From: Catalimonadaceae bacterium JC749
Lineage (GTDB): Bacteria; Bacteroidota; Bacteroidia; Cytophagales; Cyclobacteriaceae
NCBI GenBank assembly: GCA_021730635.1
Contig: JAJNNC010000001.1
Coordinates: 186,001-250,000 of the forward strand
DNA: 64,000 bases
Reading direction: 5' to 3'
The position numbers and the translations under genes are program-made. The notes under the pieces were generated by a model that saw nothing but the letters and a program-made list of their open reading frames with translations, had not been told where the DNA came from and searched no databases. Shown piece by piece: positions 1 to 63,269 of this stretch. Numbering within the stretch: position 1 is the first letter of the stretch; each line of letters starts with the position of its first letter.

Positions 1-5
1 GTACT

Positions 6-1121
6 ATGAAAATTAAACCTAAAACACAAAAATCAGATCCTCAGGGAGATGCTATCAACAGACGCACGTTCCTGCAACGGGCTAGCGCAGGCGCTGTGGC
101 ACTGTCATTTCCGGGTATCCCTACCCTGGCCTCACTTTTTAAAGAGGTGCCCATGGGTGTCGTCGTGCATTCTTATGCCAGCCGCTGGCACTCAGAAACA
201 CCCAGCAAAAAGTATCCGGGATTTCAACAGGCCATCGACCTGTTAGAACATTGCCATAAGATTGGCGCCGGTGGCATACAAGTGGGTGTCAATGACTGGA
301 CGGCAGACTTTGCCCAAAAAGTCCGTGACAGAAGAGAAGCGTTGGGCATTTACCTGGAAGGGTCGATCGGCCTGCCCAAAACTAAGGAAGAGGTATCAGG
401 CTTTGAGCAGGAAGTAATGCATGCCAAAGAAGCGGGTGTGCGTGTGTTGAGAACAGTATGTTTGGGTGGAAGGCGCTACGAGACTTTTTTCACACAGGAA
501 GCATTTCAGGAATTTAAGAAAAATTCACTGGTAGCTCTGCAGTTGGCTGAGCCTGTGGTTCGAAAACACGCCATGAAACTGGCAGTAGAAAATCACAAAG
601 ATTGGCGGGCTGATGAATTGGTCAGCGTCATGCAACAAATTGACAGCGAATGGGTAGGTGTTACCCTTGATTTTGGCAACAGCATCGCCCTGATGGAAGA
701 TGCGATGGAGGTAGTACAAACCCTGGCGCCTTATGCCATGAGTACCCATGTCAAAGATATGGGGGTGGAAGAATACGACGAGGGCTTTCTGCTATCGGAA
801 GTCCCCCTGGGAAGCGGTATTCTGGACTTACCAAAAATGGTAGCCATATGCAAAAAGCACAATCCGTCCATCACTTTCAATCTGGAAATGATTACCCGCG
901 ACCCACTGGAAATTCCTTGTCTGCAAGAGGCCTATTGGGCAACTTTTGAGGGAGTCTCCGGCAGTGAGCTGGCCAGAACCCTTCGCATGGTAAGGCAGCA
1001 CCCCTATGCCTCGGCCCTTCCCAGAGTGACCCAACTGAGCGCCGAAGAACGGCTGGCTATTGAAGAAGACAATGTGGTAGCCTCCTTGACGTACAGCAAA
1101 AACAGATTAGCATTAAAATAA
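6..1121 (+). CDS. Tat-exported sugar phosphate isomerase/epimerase family protein
   Basis: The protein has 371 residues. A twin-arginine signal is visible near residue 18 (NRRTFLQ) followed by a small hydrophobic stretch (AGAVALSFPG), so it is probably folded in the cytoplasm and exported to the periplasm. The rest reads as a xylose-isomerase-like TIM barrel: segments such as VENHKDWRADELV, VGVTLDFGNS and STHVKDMG match the conserved strands carrying the metal-binding Glu, Asp and His of this family. The substrate cannot be told. The ATG at 6 is the first start possible in the window, so upstream context is unseen. An SDR dehydrogenase starts 20 bp downstream, which suggests an operon for oxidation or isomerisation of a sugar. 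A paralogous Tat-exported isomerase occurs at 50602-51582. Confidence 0.85.
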   Translation: MKIKPKTQKSDPQGDAINRRTFLQRASAGAVALSFPGIPTLASLFKEVPMGVVVHSYASRWHSETPSKKYPGFQQAIDLLEHCHKIGAGGIQVGVNDWTADFAQKVRDRREALGIYLEGSIGLPKTKEEVSGFEQEVMHAKEAGVRVLRTVCLGGRRYETFFTQEAFQEFKKNSLVALQLAEPVVRKHAMKLAVENHKDWRADELVSVMQQIDSEWVGVTLDFGNSIALMEDAMEVVQTLAPYAMSTHVKDMGVEEYDEGFLLSEVPLGSGILDLPKMVAICKKHNPSITFNLEMITRDPLEIPCLQEAYWATFEGVSGSELARTLRMVRQHPYASALPRVTQLSAEERLAIEEDNVVASLTYSKNRLALK

Positions 1122-1141
1122 ATCAATATCAACTTTTAATT

Positions 1142-1927
1142 ATGAGTAAAGAAACACTACCCGGAATCAAACAATTTGACTTAAGTGGAAAAGCTGCCAT
1201 CATTACAGGAGGATCTAAAGGGTTGGGCTTAGCGATGGCTGCCGGTTTAGCCTCAGCAGGTGCCAACGTGATGCTGGTCAATCGGAATGCAGAAGAAGGA
1301 GCCCAGGCTGCTAAAGAACTGAGTGCAGCGTATAAGACAAAGATTCTTTCTTTTTCAGCAGACATTACCCAGGCAGATCAGACAGAAGCGATGGCCCAGG
1401 CAGCTATGGATGCTTTTGGTCAGATTGATATTCTGATCAACAGTGCTGGTATCAATATCCGGGGCCCGATCGATGAAGTAACGCCGGAAGATTTCAACAA
1501 AGTGATAGCAGTAAATGTGAATGGTACCTGGCTGTGCTGCCGGGCAGTGACACCCTACATGAAAAAAAACGGAAGTGGCCGTATCATCAACCTGGCTAGT
1601 ACGCTCGGGCTGGTAGGTTTGGCCAACCGGACACCCTATACAGCCAGTAAAGGGGCTGTCGTGCAGATGACCCGAGGCCTGGCGCTGGAGTTAGCGCCTT
1701 TCAATATCATGGTGAATGCCATTTGTCCGGGGCCGTTTCTGACAGAAATGAATGTTCCCATCGCTGGCACCGAGGAAGCAAAGAATTTCATTGTAGGCGC
1801 TACCGCCCTGGGCCGCTGGGGAGAGCTGCGGGAAATTCAGGGGGCTGCCATTTTCCTGGCCAGTGATGCCGCCAGCTATATGGTGGGTTCCATGCTCACT
1901 GTTGACGGTGGCTGGACTGCCAAATAG
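1142..1927 (+). CDS. SDR-family oxidoreductase (gluconate 5-dehydrogenase-like)
   Basis: This 261-residue classical short-chain dehydrogenase has the NAD(P)-binding TGGSKGLG at residues 22-29, NSAG at 100-103 and the catalytic Ser153, Tyr166 and Lys170 (YTASK). The C-terminus [15 protein letters not shown] is typical of the family. Its position between a sugar isomerase and a GntP-type permease suggests a polyol, gluconate or keto-acid substrate, but SDR specificity cannot be read from sequence. The last 120 coding bases plus the stop are duplicated almost exactly 1.2 kb downstream, beyond a two-gene insertion, so this gene appears to be an integration target whose reading frame has been kept intact. 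Confidence 0.88.
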   Translation: MSKETLPGIKQFDLSGKAAIITGGSKGLGLAMAAGLASAGANVMLVNRNAEEGAQAAKELSAAYKTKILSFSADITQADQTEAMAQAAMDAFGQIDILINSAGINIRGPIDEVTPEDFNKVIAVNVNGTWLCCRAVTPYMKKNGSGRIINLASTLGLVGLANRTPYTASKGAVVQMTRGLALELAPFNIMVNAICPGPFLTEMNVPIAGTEEAKNFIVGATALGRWGELREIQGAAIFLASDAASYMVGSMLTVDGGWTAK

Positions 1928-1929
1928 CC
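1807..1929 (+). repeat. 123-bp direct repeat, copy 1 (3' end of the SDR gene)
   Basis: This stretch, from CCTGGGCCGCTGG through the TAG stop to AGCC, is repeated at 2984-3106 with a single difference (GGG here, GGA there). The difference falls at the third base of a Gly codon and is silent. The match begins and ends abruptly, and flanking bases do not match. The pair brackets the low-GC two-gene insertion. Confidence 0.97.
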
Positions 1930-2030
1930 GGTATTTTCGATCGCTACTGTTTAGAGGATTTTGTTTGGTTACGGATCAGTCTCACATCAATAGGACTGCT
2001 GAAATTTAATTTTTTTCAGATTTTATCCAA

Positions 2031-2651
2031 TTATTTTCGTGCTTTTCTATGGATAATCCATTCCCTAACATAGAGTTTATATTCTGACCATGGCATAGAA
2101 ACTAAATCCTCTTTACTATAGTTTTCTTCCCGAACCACCTCATCTAATTTATCCAAAAATTCATTGTAGGTATTCCAGATAGCTTTACCACTAGTAAGCT
2201 TTTCTCCCTTGATATGAAACAACCAGTTCCTCACTTCTCGGATAAGTACTTCAGGATCTTCTTTATGATAGGCTATATCATTACCAGAGAGGTCGGAGAT
2301 AACTTTCTGATAACGGTATTTTTCTTTATCTAGAATCAGACAACGCTTGTCAGTATGCTCTCCTCCTTTAAATCTTCGACAGCCTAAATCTAAACCTAGT
2401 TCAAAAGGCATATTGAAGCGAGCCAAATCACCCGCCTTGGCTGCTTCCATACGTGATAGATCATGAATGCTGTACTTGGATGCCTCAATAAGGTTTGCTA
2501 TGCCTTGAACACGTGTCCGACCAGAATCTAAAGTTTCGCTAATCTGGGGATCAAAACCACAATAAAGGACAGTAAAAAGAAGAGGCTTTAATAAAGTTTT
2601 ATAATCTTCATCAAAAGGACAATTGATAAATACATTCGTTTCAAAAGTCAT
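2031..2651 (-). CDS. Conserved protein of unknown function, possible TIR/deoxyribosyltransferase-like fold
   Basis: The protein has 206 residues with no signal peptide or membrane segment. I recognise the pattern of a widespread uncharacterised family: FINCPFD at residues 8-14, an IHDLSR motif at 62-67 and RFNMPFELGLDLG at 78-90. A strand ending in a polar IHDLS-type motif followed by a helix with an invariant Glu (E84) resembles nucleoside 2-deoxyribosyltransferases and TIR-like NAD-cleaving enzymes, so a nucleotide substrate is possible. This is inference; a catalytic role is not shown. Its ATG overlaps the stop of the upstream DUF2188 gene by one base (TAATG), which implies translational coupling. 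The gene lies in a low-GC insertion flanked by direct repeats, so it is probably horizontally acquired cargo. Confidence 0.8.
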   Translation of the reverse strand: MTFETNVFINCPFDEDYKTLLKPLLFTVLYCGFDPQISETLDSGRTRVQGIANLIEASKYSIHDLSRMEAAKAGDLARFNMPFELGLDLGCRRFKGGEHTDKRCLILDKEKYRYQKVISDLSGNDIAYHKEDPEVLIREVRNWLFHIKGEKLTSGKAIWNTYNEFLDKLDEVVREENYSKEDLVSMPWSEYKLYVREWIIHRKARK

Positions 2652-2917
2652 TAACTAGCTAAGGTCATGCGTTCTTCCACCGAACCATCTTTACGATGAA
2701 CCACTACTTCATCTATTTTTCCTCTTTCTAAATAATGAGCAGCTTCTTTTTTAGCTTCATTCTTATCAAGATAAACTCCCAATGCCCTTTTAGCTCCCTC
2801 CTTTACAACCTGCCACTTACCTTCCCAGATAATAATGTGAATCTTGTTCTCTTTGGTAGCGCCGGATTTTCTGAATTTAGCTGCTAAATTGCTTTTGTTG
2901 ATCGCAGTTGATTCCAT
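2651..2917 (-). CDS. DUF2188 domain protein
   Basis: This is an 88-residue small basic protein. The core HIIIWEGKWQVVKEGAKRA, the KNEAKKEAAHYLERG helix and a final VVVHRKDGSVEER hairpin give the usual DUF2188 pattern of strand, W-x-V, helix and HRxDGxI. Its function is unknown. I use the ATG at 2917 rather than the TTG at 2923. It is the first gene of a coupled pair: its stop overlaps the start of the 206-residue protein by one base. Small DUF2188 proteins paired with a larger putative enzyme could act as regulator or antidote, but nothing in the sequence proves this. Confidence 0.8.
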   Translation of the reverse strand: MESTAINKSNLAAKFRKSGATKENKIHIIIWEGKWQVVKEGAKRALGVYLDKNEAKKEAAHYLERGKIDEVVVHRKDGSVEERMTLAS

Positions 2918-2983
2918 ACCCAAATATACGCACTAATGGCTGAAAAAGATATGACAAGGAAAATGGCTTAATTATTATACATT

Positions 2984-3106
2984 CCTGGGCCGCTGGGGAG
3001 AGCTGCGGGAAATTCAGGGAGCTGCCATTTTCCTGGCCAGTGATGCCGCCAGCTATATGGTGGGTTCCATGCTCACTGTTGACGGTGGCTGGACTGCCAA
3101 ATAGCC
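2984..3106 (+). repeat. 123-bp direct repeat, copy 2 (orphan SDR 3' end)
   Basis: This is the second copy of the SDR gene's last 120 coding bases plus stop and AGCC, 122 of 123 identical to 1807-1929. It is detached from any start codon. It is followed directly by the sequence leading into the convergent GntP permease, so it may mark the original 3' end of the SDR gene before insertion. Confidence 0.97.
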
Positions 3107-3128
3107 ACTATAAGGTTATCGCTAAAGC

Positions 3129-4457
3129 TTATATAAAAGATGTAATAACGTAAATAGTCACGATGGCTGTACATGCCAGGAGCAGCGTACCCACACTATG
3201 GGATTGGTACCCCTGCTTGATGTTCATGCCTGTAAGCTGCGTCATGGCCCAAAAGAAACTGTCGTTGGCATGAGAAACGGCGGTAGCCCCCGCTCCAATA
3301 GCCAGCACTGTGAAGACTTTCAGAATGGGGGTATCCAACCCTAAGGTTGGCAACAGCGGCGCTACGATAGAGGCAGTGGTCACCAAAGCCACAGTAGAAG
3401 AACCTTGTGCTGTCTTCAGCGCCAGAGCCATAAAGAAGGGCAGCAACAGGCTCCAGTTACCTCCTGCCACATTGCCGCTTACCAGATCAGCGATCCCTGA
3501 ATTTTGTAGCATGGCACCAAATACACCCCCCGCACCCGTGATGAAAACGACCGGCGCAGCAATGATAATGGCTTCGCCAAACCATCCGGTGGAGGATAAC
3601 AGGGTTTTGTCTAGTTTCTCCGGAAGCATAAAGGACAGAAAAGTACCCAACAACAAAGCGATCAGCGGATTACCAATAAATATGATAATGGAGGCAAAGG
3701 CATTTTCCCCAAAAGGATGGGTAGGATAACTGGCGATAGAAGCCAGTACGATTAAAAGCAACGGGACGATAATGGGTAAAAAAGACTTTCCGAAAGAAGG
3801 ATATTTTTTGACCTCTGTTGTCTTTTCCACTTCAGCGAATTGCGGAACAAGGTCAATGCGTGAGGCATAATATTTGGCAAAAAAGAAACAGGGAATCAAC
3901 GCGATCAGACTTACTATGATGCCCCAGAAAATAACCAACCCCAGGTCGGCTCCCAGGATACCGGCAGCGGCAATCGGGCCGGGTGTGGGAGGCACCAGCG
4001 AATGACTGGCTGTTACGCCTAAAGTCAATGCGATGGTAGTGGCAGCAAAGGGCAGTTTGCCTTTAAAAGATAAGGATTTGTTAATGGGGTTGAGCATAAT
4101 GAAAGTACTATCTCCAAAAACCGGGATGGATAAGACCCAGCCTGTGAGCATCATGGCCAGCATGACCGATTTCTCCCCGATATAGCGAAGTATTTTTTGA
4201 GCGATGACAAAAGCGCCCCCGGTCTTTTCTAAAAACGTTCCGATAATCACGCCCAGTATGATCAGGAGGCCGATTCTTCCCAACACCCCTCCAAAGCCAT
4301 CCGAAATAGATTTGAGAATGAGTTCGGCTGACATGCCTGATAGTAAACCATAGGCAATGGCTCCTACAAAAAGCGCCAGAAAGGGATGTATCTCAAATTT
4401 GATGATAGCCACAATGATGAAAGCCAGGGCTAATAGCACAATGAGGAGGGTAAGCAT
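3129..4457 (-). CDS. GntP-family gluconate:H+ symporter
   Basis: This is a 442-residue polytopic inner-membrane protein with about 12 hydrophobic segments. The start (LLALAFIIVAIIKFEIHPF), GLLIILGVIIGTFLEKTGGA and the central SHSLVPPTPGPIAAAGILG segment are hallmarks of the GntP family (gluconate, fructuronate or related sugar-acid permeases). It would import a sugar acid with protons. It converges on the SDR and isomerase genes at 6-1927, and before the two-gene insertion the SDR and permease would have been close convergent neighbours, which supports a role in the same sugar-acid pathway. Exact substrate unknown. Confidence 0.9.
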   Translation of the reverse strand: MLTLLIVLLALAFIIVAIIKFEIHPFLALFVGAIAYGLLSGMSAELILKSISDGFGGVLGRIGLLIILGVIIGTFLEKTGGAFVIAQKILRYIGEKSVMLAMMLTGWVLSIPVFGDSTFIMLNPINKSLSFKGKLPFAATTIALTLGVTASHSLVPPTPGPIAAAGILGADLGLVIFWGIIVSLIALIPCFFFAKYYASRIDLVPQFAEVEKTTEVKKYPSFGKSFLPIIVPLLLIVLASIASYPTHPFGENAFASIIIFIGNPLIALLLGTFLSFMLPEKLDKTLLSSTGWFGEAIIIAAPVVFITGAGGVFGAMLQNSGIADLVSGNVAGGNWSLLLPFFMALALKTAQGSSTVALVTTASIVAPLLPTLGLDTPILKVFTVLAIGAGATAVSHANDSFFWAMTQLTGMNIKQGYQSHSVGTLLLACTAIVTIYVITSFI

Positions 4458-4608
4458 AATTTCGTTTTAGGTTTAGTTTGGCTCAAGCCAAAGTGTATTT
4501 TAGAGATTCGTATTAGCTTCTGAAATTATTGATTTAGTATTGAAATTACATACATCCTACCAGAATAATATTTTTGCCTGCACTATATGCCTGGTTTTGA
4601 AGCAAAGA

Positions 4609-4649
4609 CTTCTGAAAACAGATCAGCAAAAGCCTCCTGTTTTCAGAAG
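4609..4649. terminator. 13-bp perfect inverted repeat downstream of the RND operon
   Basis: CTTCTGAAAACAG at 4609-4621 is perfectly inverted at 4637-4649 with a 15-base loop. It lies about 40 bp beyond the stop of the efflux adaptor gene, on the side where minus-strand transcription would end. There is no clean T-run after it on the minus strand, so intrinsic termination is only a possibility; it could also stabilise the mRNA 3' end. Confidence 0.45.
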
Positions 4650-4686
4650 CCTGTAGAAACTTTGCCTAGCACTTGGCCTGATGCTG

Positions 4687-6030
4687 TCAATGGCTGTGGT
4701 GCCCTCCCTCCCCTTTTTTCATTTCCGAAAAAAGATCGTAGGCTCCTTGCACAACCAGCCGAGCCTCCCTCGGTAAATCAGGGACTGACTTGATTTCCAC
4801 CAGTCCATTTTGGGAGATACCGGTCACCACCTCTACACTCTGAAATACAACCCCGCCCGGCTCATGGTGATGATCCGCCGAACTTTCTTCATGCTCATGT
4901 TCGTGTCCGGATGCCTGCTGACTCTCCTGGGCATGTTCATGATCTTCTTCGTGTGCCGGTTCCTCTTCCTCATCGTGGGCTGTTTCCTGATGCGGCAGCT
5001 CTTCCACAGCCACAAAAATATACTGTCTATCCTCATCCCGGATCACGGCTTCTTCCGGCAATGCCAGTGCCGCTTCCCTACCCGTATAAATAGTGGCGTC
5101 CAGATACAGGCCCCGGATAAATTCCGGGTGTTCTCCCTGTATATGGCCATGTACCCGGACTATCTTTTTTTCCATATCGAAAGATTTTCCAACCAGAAAG
5201 ACTTCTCCGGCATAGGTTTTCCCAGCCAGGCTCGGTACTTTGAATCGGATCTCTTGCCCTACCTTGATCTTGTGAATATCTTCTTCAAACACATTGAGCT
5301 CTAAATGCATATGAGCAATATCAATGATTTCATAGAGCTCCTGCTCGGGCTGAACAAACAAACCATTGTGGATATTCAGTTGCGTAATATAACCGGAGAA
5401 AGGGGCTCGAATGTAGATGACAGCAGAAAGGTTCCCCTTGCTAATCTCCTTCGGATTGAGTCCGATATACCTAAGCTGCTCTTCCAGAGATTTCGTACGG
5501 GCCAAGGTCACCTTATAATCAGCTTCCGCTTCCTGGTAGCGTTTTTTTGCGGCAATATTAGCCGAACTAAGCTGTTGCTGACGCTTCCATTCCGCCTCCA
5601 GATAATCCAACCGGCTCACCTGGGTTAAATAATCCTCCTGAATTTTCAGATAGTCGGGATGTTCCATTTCTGCCAACACATCTCCTTTTCGCACATGGTT
5701 CCCCACCAGATAATTCGCCTTTTTCACAAAACCTGCCATAGGAGCAGAAATGGCTGCGATATTTTGAGGCGGCAGATCCAGCACTCCATTAGACTTTACA
5801 AACCCGGAAGTATTCAAAGTATCAAAATTGCCAAAAACTACTCCTGCCATGGCCATCTGGGCATCCGTCAGCCTCACGCTGTTTTCCTCCCCGGCATGGT
5901 CATCATGATCAGTGGTTTCCTCCTGGTGTGCCTGTTCCTCTTCATGCTCATGGTCGGTAGGTGCCGTACAACCAAAGCTCAAAAAGTAACACACTAGAAT
6001 ATGTATGATGGACAATAGATTCGGTTTCAT
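4687..6030 (-). CDS. Heavy-metal RND efflux periplasmic adaptor (CusB/CzcB type), His-rich lipoprotein
   Basis: This 447-residue protein begins with a lipoprotein signal ending LSFGC (Cys21), so it is probably anchored to a membrane. Residues 27-50 and about 350-395 are rich in His, Asp and Glu (HEHEHEESSADHHHEPGG), and the chain ends GGHHSH; these would bind divalent or monovalent metal ions. The middle has the membrane-fusion-protein layout: barrel-sandwich segment (ISAPMAGFVKKANYLVGNHV), a coiled-coil hairpin around residues 130-190, and the second lipoyl half (IYIRAPFSGYITQLNIHNG). It would link the pump to the outer-membrane channel encoded as one fused gene immediately upstream. Metal specificity (Zn, Cd, Co, Cu or Ag) is not certain. 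Confidence 0.92.
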   Translation of the reverse strand: MKPNLLSIIHILVCYFLSFGCTAPTDHEHEEEQAHQEETTDHDDHAGEENSVRLTDAQMAMAGVVFGNFDTLNTSGFVKSNGVLDLPPQNIAAISAPMAGFVKKANYLVGNHVRKGDVLAEMEHPDYLKIQEDYLTQVSRLDYLEAEWKRQQQLSSANIAAKKRYQEAEADYKVTLARTKSLEEQLRYIGLNPKEISKGNLSAVIYIRAPFSGYITQLNIHNGLFVQPEQELYEIIDIAHMHLELNVFEEDIHKIKVGQEIRFKVPSLAGKTYAGEVFLVGKSFDMEKKIVRVHGHIQGEHPEFIRGLYLDATIYTGREAALALPEEAVIRDEDRQYIFVAVEELPHQETAHDEEEEPAHEEDHEHAQESQQASGHEHEHEESSADHHHEPGGVVFQSVEVVTGISQNGLVEIKSVPDLPREARLVVQGAYDLFSEMKKGEGGHHSH

Positions 6031-21350: not shown

Positions 21351-21711
21351 TTAGTTTTCTCTTTGTGACACCAGCTCACACACCTTATGGAAATAAACCA
21401 TAAAAACCCCTCTAATACTAAAATTTGAAGGGCTTTAATACTAACTAAATCTGTGAGGCAGAGGTAGCAAGCATTCGAACCTCCTGCCTATAAAGATTTT
21501 CTTCATTTGTTTGAGGCGGAAGAGAACCTAGATTATAAGAATGAAAAAATTATAATTGTGAGGATTCGGCCTATCTGAGTCACTTAAGTTGTACTGTTTT
21601 GTATGTACCTAAATATTGTGACACATAAAACATTGCAAATCAATAGCTTAACTCTTATCATTATTAAGTTTATTTACCAAAAGGTTATACTCCTTTATAA
21701 TACTATCTCTG
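21351..21711. other. Intergenic region carrying tRNA-Ser-like repeat copy A
   Basis: No gene is present. From 21403 to 21563 lies a sequence also found near 30.35-30.72 kb, and its first part matches the tRNA-Ser 3' end plus terminator at 63.13-63.20 kb. The rest (21564-21711) is AT-rich with no recognisable element and leads into the 3' end of the histidine kinase gene. Confidence 0.7.
21403..21563 (-). repeat. Decayed tRNA-Ser 3' end and terminator, repeat copy A
   Basis: Read on the minus strand it contains GGTTCGAATGCTTGCTACC and CTCTGCC (remnants of T-arm and acceptor), then TTAGTTAGTATTAAAGCCC and a weakened hairpin like the terminator after tRNA-Ser at 63185-63269. The part from 21464 to 21563 also matches 30617-30721. 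No tRNA 5' half exists here. Such partial copies are usual scars of elements that integrate at tRNA 3' ends. Confidence 0.7.
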
Positions 21712-30332: not shown

Positions 30333-30425
30333 AAAATATGAAGCGATAAAAAATAAAAAAACCCTCTAATACTAAAATTTGAAGGGTTTTGATACTAAAT
30401 GATTCTGCGAGGCAGAGGGTAAGGC
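30333..30425 (-). repeat. tRNA-Ser 3'-end/terminator-like repeat, copy B1
   Basis: AAATATGAAGCGATAAAAAA and the following hairpin (CCCTCTAAT, ATTTGAAGGG) plus TGATACTAAATGATTC and GCAGAGGGT align with the terminator and acceptor end of tRNA-Ser at 63.10-63.19 kb. The match fades inside the T-arm (AAGGCTCTTGAATCA). It is a partial, decayed copy with no 5' tRNA half. Confidence 0.7.
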
Positions 30426-30616
30426 TCTTGAATCATTTCTGTATATTTCTGATAGTCAATAAATTATTGTTTTAAAAATAAATTAGGCTACCGAATAGGT
30501 CACCTTTTGGTTTATTTGTATTTGTTCCCATTTAGCTGGCAGGTTTATGTATCAAATTATTCCTCTTTTTAAATTATAGGTTACTCATCTTCATTGATAC
30601 CTTCATTCCATAAATC

Positions 30617-30721
30617 GTAGCAAGCATTCGAACCTCCTGCCTATAAAGATTTCCTTCATTTTTTTAAGGAAGAAAAGAGCCTAAATTCCAAGAATGAAAC
30701 AATAATAATTACGAAACGAGG
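30617..30721 (-). repeat. Repeat copy B2, matching 21464-21563
   Basis: GTAGCAAGCATTCGAACC and the next about 85 bases match copy A closely (TCCTGCCTATAAAGATTT, GAGCCTA, AAGAATGAAA), with scattered changes. In copy A this part is continuous with the terminator-like piece, while here it is separated from B1 by about 190 bp. Confidence 0.75.
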
Positions 30722-63158: not shown

Positions 63159-63184
63159 TTCTGATACTAACTGAATCTTCGATG

Positions 63185-63269
63185 CAGAGGGTGAGGGATT
63201 CGAACCCCCGGTACCTCTCGGTACAACGGTTTTCAAGACCGCCGCGTTCGACCGCTCCGCCAACCCTCT
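63185..63269 (-). tRNA. tRNA-Ser (anticodon UGA)
   Basis: The 85-nt cloverleaf begins AGAGGGT-TG and its acceptor partner ACCCTCT is followed by discriminator G. The anticodon loop is CTTGAAA, giving UGA. A long variable arm (GTACCGAGAGGTAC) marks a serine tRNA, and the T-loop is TTCGAAT. CCA is not encoded. It stands alone with a terminator behind it, and its 3' end is the sequence copied at 21.4 and 30.4 kb. Confidence 0.96.

Follow-up and report, generated by a model that had tools for sequence, protein, structure and literature searches.

Restriction-modification genes can reportedly insert into chromosomes with a long duplication of their target, a phenomenon said to have been described by Nobusato et al. 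in 2000 and by Furuta et al. in 2010. The available excerpts of a study on Helicobacter describe restriction-modification modules that are flanked by direct repeats of the target sequence, of variable length and around 100 bp (PMC3874152), and insertion with long target duplication likewise appears in excerpts of other papers (PMC1643837, PMC3031569, PMC4978471, PMC2749054). In the excerpts of all these papers, a dedicated recombinase is not described. The locus analysed here lies in a stretch of 64,000 nucleotides, called the window, from Catalimonadaceae bacterium JC749, and, judged against those excerpts, it looks like the same phenomenon with a different cargo. As in the restriction-modification cases covered there, a compact module is bounded by target-derived direct repeats, of 42 to 123 bp at the clear sites treated below, and there are related genomes in which the site is uninterrupted (17 of 29, at the level of the family). 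In contrast to those cases, the cargo is a pair of genes, encoding a DUF2188 protein together with a TIR-like effector, instead of restriction-modification genes; the duplicated stretches are ends of genes, the 3′ end at five of the six clear sites and the 5′ end at one; and they come from Bacteroidota and one alphaproteobacterial assembly, not from Helicobacter.

In the window, the 3′ end of an SDR oxidoreductase gene is present on both sides of an inserted unit (Table 1). The two copies form a direct repeat of 123 bp (99.2% identity, E 4e-58), stronger than the two others that were listed at distances of up to 20 kb in the window. Their sole mismatch, GGG to GGA, falls in a codon for Gly in the SDR reading frame and is synonymous. 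Identity stops 2 bp past the stop codon at one side and mid-gene at the other, and the repeat has no match in the 8.0-Mb assembly beyond these two places (E ≤ 0.001). Elsewhere in the window, at 21393-21557 and 30346-30710, there are two direct-repeat pairs of 73-94 bp that are 86-87% identical and about 9 kb apart. The unit itself measures 1,054 bp and has a GC content of 36.6%, as against 51.5% in the SDR gene and 48.0% in the GntP gene; among 597 further stretches of 1,054 bp taken from the window, 2.5% have a value as low. Its two genes overlap as TAATG, with the stop codon of the DUF2188 gene overlapping the start of the effector gene, and neither has a Pfam match to a recombinase. Unlike a transposon or an insertion sequence, the unit has no inverted pair at its two ends and no Pfam match to a transposase. 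One tRNA gene is located in the window (63184-63269), and positions 1-6000 have no Rfam match. The original prediction of a coupled, low-GC gene pair without an integrase, whose insertion duplicated target sequence and kept the SDR gene intact, was thus borne out, with the coordinates of the repeat exact and its one mismatch in 123 synonymous as claimed.

Table 1. Features around the inserted unit (window positions) and repeats at the clear target sites.
Feature	Position	Strand	Match or remark
SDR oxidoreductase gene, intact, target	1142..1927	+	Pfam adh_short_C2, E 7e-66
Repeat copy 1: last 121 bp of SDR gene including stop, plus 2 bp	1807..1929	+	
Inserted low-GC unit between copies	1930..2983	.	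single copy in genome
TIR-like effector, 206 aa	2031..2651	-	no Pfam or NCBIfam family
DUF2188 protein, 90 aa from TTG or 88 aa from ATG at 2917	2651..2923	-	PF09954
Repeat copy 2: orphan SDR 3′ end	2984..3106	+	
GntP family permease, convergent neighbour	3129..4457	-	Pfam, E 3e-94
Site in window: SDR 3′ end			repeat of 123 bp
Site L012, Brumimicrobium glaciale: 3′ part of IIGP-type GTPase gene			repeat of 85 bp
Site L047, alphaproteobacterial assembly: 2-oxoacid dehydrogenase acyltransferase 3′ end			repeat of 74 columns, 80%
Site L147 (= L070): near hemE 3′ end			repeat of 42 bp, 88%
Site L145 (= L102): 5′ end of gene without Pfam match			repeat of ~115 bp, ends at the ATG of the gene
Site L244: beta-CASP hydrolase gene 3′ end			repeat of 98 columns, 79%

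The state of this site in relatives indicates which of the two copies is native. Orthologs of the SDR gene are present in 43 of 148 genomes of the family, the genome under study included, and 29 of the 42 others were read with flanks of about 1.5 kb, which were shorter downstream in two genomes. In 17 of these 29 relatives, which belong to the same family and include no closer strain, the GntP gene is convergent with the SDR gene and adjoins it, and the cassette is absent. The distance between the SDR stop and the end of the GntP alignment is -1 to 216 bp in these 17 genomes, and about -1 to 60 bp in 14 of them. Neither cassette gene is matched around the SDR gene in any of the 29 relatives; an empty arrangement had been predicted, and a cassette without the repeat, which would have spoken against insertion, was not found among them. 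In a genome of the same genus (G001), the SDR and GntP genes are at other places, and an empty site within the genus was not found. Between the stop codon of orphan copy 2 (3102-3104) and the GntP gene there are 24 bp, a spacing like that in relatives, and copy 2 is therefore read as the native SDR end. Together, this spacing and the adjacency of the two genes in relatives imply that the cassette was inserted with a duplication of the SDR end. The inserted piece may then be read as the cassette plus one SDR end, with copy 1 closing the intact gene.

Related cassettes were collected by searching for the effector, which gave 60 loci in genome contigs and 11 in viral contigs, all samples overlapping. 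Effector-positive genomes made up 17 of 86 in a family sample, 14 of 291 in an order sample, 12 of 244 in a class sample and 35 of 395 in a phylum sample, which also overlap. A total of 125 sequences were scanned for a direct repeat that spans the cassette (E ≤ 1e-6, within 1 kb), and 14 were left out for flanks shorter than 300 bp. Such a repeat was found at 12 of the remaining 111 loci, window included. As controls, 424 intervals of the same size were taken from the same sequences and from the rest of the window; eight had a spanning repeat (two of these matches were inspected), and two had one of at least 74% identity, the lowest identity among the 12 cassette repeats. The scan threshold was chosen after first looks and the rows are not independent, which bears on all of the Fisher values: 2e-7 for the comparison at identities of 74% and above, 1e-6 when the seed window is removed, 7e-5 when, in addition, each distinct site is counted once, and 1e-4, a weaker contrast, when all control matches are counted. 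The 12 matches reduce to nine distinct sites, as L070 equals L147 and L150, L175 and L178 are one site type, paralogs in a variable gene region. Five further loci came in a later batch, in which L244 was positive, making a tenth site, and L248 had almost no downstream flank. Metagenome assemblies are among the supporting loci.

About nine in ten cassette loci do not have such a repeat, so that cassettes must often arrive in other ways or lose the repeat by decay. When orphan gene ends of greater age were sought at the protein level at 83 loci, the search recovered the window and L012, with a few weak or unrelated matches besides, and missed L047; the same search gave matches in 9 of 303 controls. 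A looser DNA search (E ≤ 0.01), which gave way to the scan described above, had matches in 22 of 182 controls.

Six sites, one of them from the later batch (L244), are clear in that one copy of the repeat lies inside an intact neighbouring gene. The genes are unrelated to each other. Thus, the expectation that the cassette would be found at other genes, each with its own target-derived duplication, also held. The sites L146, L148, L149 and L150/L175/L178 were not counted as clear targets. In L148, a perfect 30-bp direct repeat (3930-3959 and 4925-4954, reverse complement) surrounds a cassette variant in intergenic DNA. The 3′ end of the target gene faces the 3′ end of the cassette in the window, L047 and L244, and its 5′ side in L012 and L147, while in L145 the duplicated end is the 5′ end of the gene. 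The boundaries of the repeat are at or near a gene start or stop in five of the six sites. In L012, the orphan copy begins 2 bp after the effector stop; at 5709-5819 of this locus, the orphan gene piece adjoins a truncated frame that resembles, weakly (E 0.05), the start of a PIN toxin.

The surroundings of L145 are variable. Its orphan gene start is 62 bp from a DJ-1-like gene. In G673, a genome of the same genus, a PIN-type gene pair and not the TIR-like cassette is located between the target and DJ-1-like genes, and a cassette of 74% identity is found beyond the DJ-1-like gene; in G555, there is no cassette between the DJ-1-like gene and a gene for what is presumably a peptidase, both of these names being assigned from sequence and not from a family search. 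In locus L143 (contig C582 of G673; reverse complement, 3186-3864 and 4673-5538), the PIN-type pair lies where the related genome G563 has the TIR-like cassette, and the cassette of G673 is located past the next gene. With a PIN pair at the spot of one cassette and a cassette beyond the next gene, small modules seem to swap at a single spot.

The extent of the moving piece can be estimated from cassettes at different sites. In nine pairs of at least 70% identity among the matches listed, all of which involve L009 or L010, the homologous nucleotide stretch begins 248-325 bp ahead of the effector start, and its other end lies anywhere from 48 bp before to 16 bp after the effector stop. Two pairs are exceptions: in L010/L015 (67%), homology extends to about 120-136 bp past the effector stop, and in L104/L115 (89%, one genus), it runs from 501-546 bp before the effector to 47 bp after its stop. 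Conserved module ends were not seen in pairs among the matches listed.

These observations are probably best explained by the insertion of a DUF2188/TIR-like module between the SDR and GntP genes, with duplication of the SDR end and with host recombination as the most likely agent. The gene end is duplicated, the arrangement in relatives is empty and the pattern recurs at other targets; with neither a recognisable recombinase nor a fixed target, we infer that host recombination made the insertion. Incoming DNA with a self-contained two-gene module would be acted on by the host, one side being joined by homology in the neighbouring gene and the other by an illegitimate join. Alternatively, the module would be on a circle, together with a gene end, and this circle would integrate. 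The insertion would leave a duplicate of the last 123 bp of the SDR gene, copy 2 being native and copy 1 closing the gene. Spread by homologous recombination is a plausible route, and homology-facilitated illegitimate recombination and duplications made by transformation, as presented in excerpts of one paper (PMC3784515), have been considered as routes.

The differences between the copies bear on how the duplication formed. Taken together, the copies in the window, L012 and L145 have seven synonymous and no non-synonymous differences, and the two L145 copies each show a separate synonymous change relative to G673. This suggests that both copies were earlier gene ends in different genomes. Such synonymous-only differences would be expected if the cassette brought the end of a neighbouring gene with it and was integrated through homology. 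By contrast, the copies in L147 have one synonymous and four non-synonymous differences, and those in L047 have none and four, in the last 10 codons only; in both, the orphan looks like a useless copy in decay. In addition, a comparison of hemE ends from eight genomes of one family did not favour an imported end. When the five loci are pooled, L244 being left out, 8 of 16 differences are synonymous (p 0.03), and the pooled evidence is weak. An imported gene end fits three cases and plain decay fits two; with this mixed evidence, host recombination is the preferred but tentative reading.

A tentative alternative is that the duplication is made at insertion, as a long target-site duplication. 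Two nicks some 40-130 bp apart would be opened, the module captured and the gaps filled, so that the copies would be identical at the start, the orphan would decay and no gene end would be imported. The near identity of the copies in the window, the mostly non-synonymous decay in L147 and L047 and the lack of a sign of import at hemE are all consistent with this. Nevertheless, it does not account well for the differences in the window, L012 and L145, seven of seven being synonymous, or for the separate changes of the two L145 copies, and nicking alone does not predict repeat boundaries at or near gene starts and stops.

It is unlikely, yet conceivable, that the two genes by themselves form a minimal mobile element, with one of their own proteins, or a host response that they provoke, making the gene-end duplication. 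If so, TIR-type modules would move between genes without any known type of recombinase.

A site-specific integrase acting in trans, which would insert the cassette at gene ends and leave attachment sites as repeats, is a rather improbable agent. Islands at gene 3′ ends share with this locus the position at a gene end, the duplication of that end and the intact target, and the original prediction had drawn this likeness. Some pairs of repeats share 8-mers, and those of the window and L012 share up to 11 bp, as attachment sites might. However, no 8-mer is common to at least three of the six clear-site repeats, and one 7-mer is found in three of them, an outcome that 37 of 200 shuffles gave as well. 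The lack of a common core argues against a site-specific island. Moreover, in contrast to islands at gene or tRNA 3′ ends, the unit is of 1 kb and has no integrase, the targets are unrelated and vary, both orientations occur, one site is a 5′ end and the repeats range from 42 to 123 bp. Among the matches listed on the contig, the only one to PF00589 is about 594 kb from the unit. The likeness to islands did not hold up, and this candidate was disfavoured. Finally, although tandem duplication often leaves partial copies of genes, it is very improbable that the orphan is the remnant of a tandem SDR duplication into which the cassette fell by chance, and this reading was rejected: the duplicated stretch is limited to 123 bp, no longer repeat having been found, it occurs at two places in the genome only and its limits are not those of a decayed tandem gene, GntP directly follows SDR in 17 of the 29 relatives read, and the same pattern surrounds the same cassette at other genes.

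As for the cargo, the DUF2188 protein matches PF09954 (E 1.5e-9, 38.3 bits against a gathering score of 22) and the PADLOC model PDC-S16 (E 3e-9), PADLOC giving DUF2188 proteins a candidate label only. Its predicted model (pLDDT 78.7) had no PDB match at E ≤ 0.001. The effector had no match to a TIR model of Pfam or NCBIfam at E ≤ 1, and its AlphaFold2 model is confident (pLDDT 93.6) and predicts a TIR fold. In a Foldseek search, the best match of this model was 8i88_C, the TIR domain of SPARTA (E 3e-4, TM about 0.5); the 11 PDB chains at E ≤ 0.001 were all TIR proteins, nine of SPARTA and two of plants, and AbTir matched at E 0.003. Residues invariant in 50 effector sequences include D64, R78, N80 and E84, the last of which opens a helix that follows a strand, a position that may correspond to that of the catalytic Glu in TIR NADases. 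The effector thus resembles SPARTA TIR-APAZ and AbTir NADases in its predicted fold and presumably in E84; it differs from them in lacking a Pfam TIR match, in being a stand-alone protein of 206 aa with added C-terminal helices, and in having DUF2188 or another small protein as a partner.

A DUF2188-like partner is present at 74 of 121 effector loci and absent at 47. Loci without it include L047, L148, L056 and L061-L066, and several have other small genes just upstream; thus, the partner may be exchangeable. On these models, an NADase-type effector controlled by its small partner would be the natural reading. The pairing of the genes, the fold and the PADLOC candidate label are consistent with a role of an anti-phage or toxin-antitoxin type, which we infer for the module. 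The effector matched 17 plasmid records and none of the phage records. The cassette of Lutibacter maritimus (L010 = L086) is on a contig kept as viral in IMG/VR, and some copies may therefore travel with prophages. A description of the DUF2188/TIR-like pair was not found in the open-licence literature.

Small gene pairs of a defence or toxin type are found at scattered places in bacterial genomes, and their entry into chromosomes without a carrier calls for an explanation. The presence of one module family, with target-derived duplications, at six unrelated genes extends a mechanism proposed for restriction-modification genes to a module of TIR type. In addition, comparable scars at these sites let imported gene ends be told from a duplication made at insertion.
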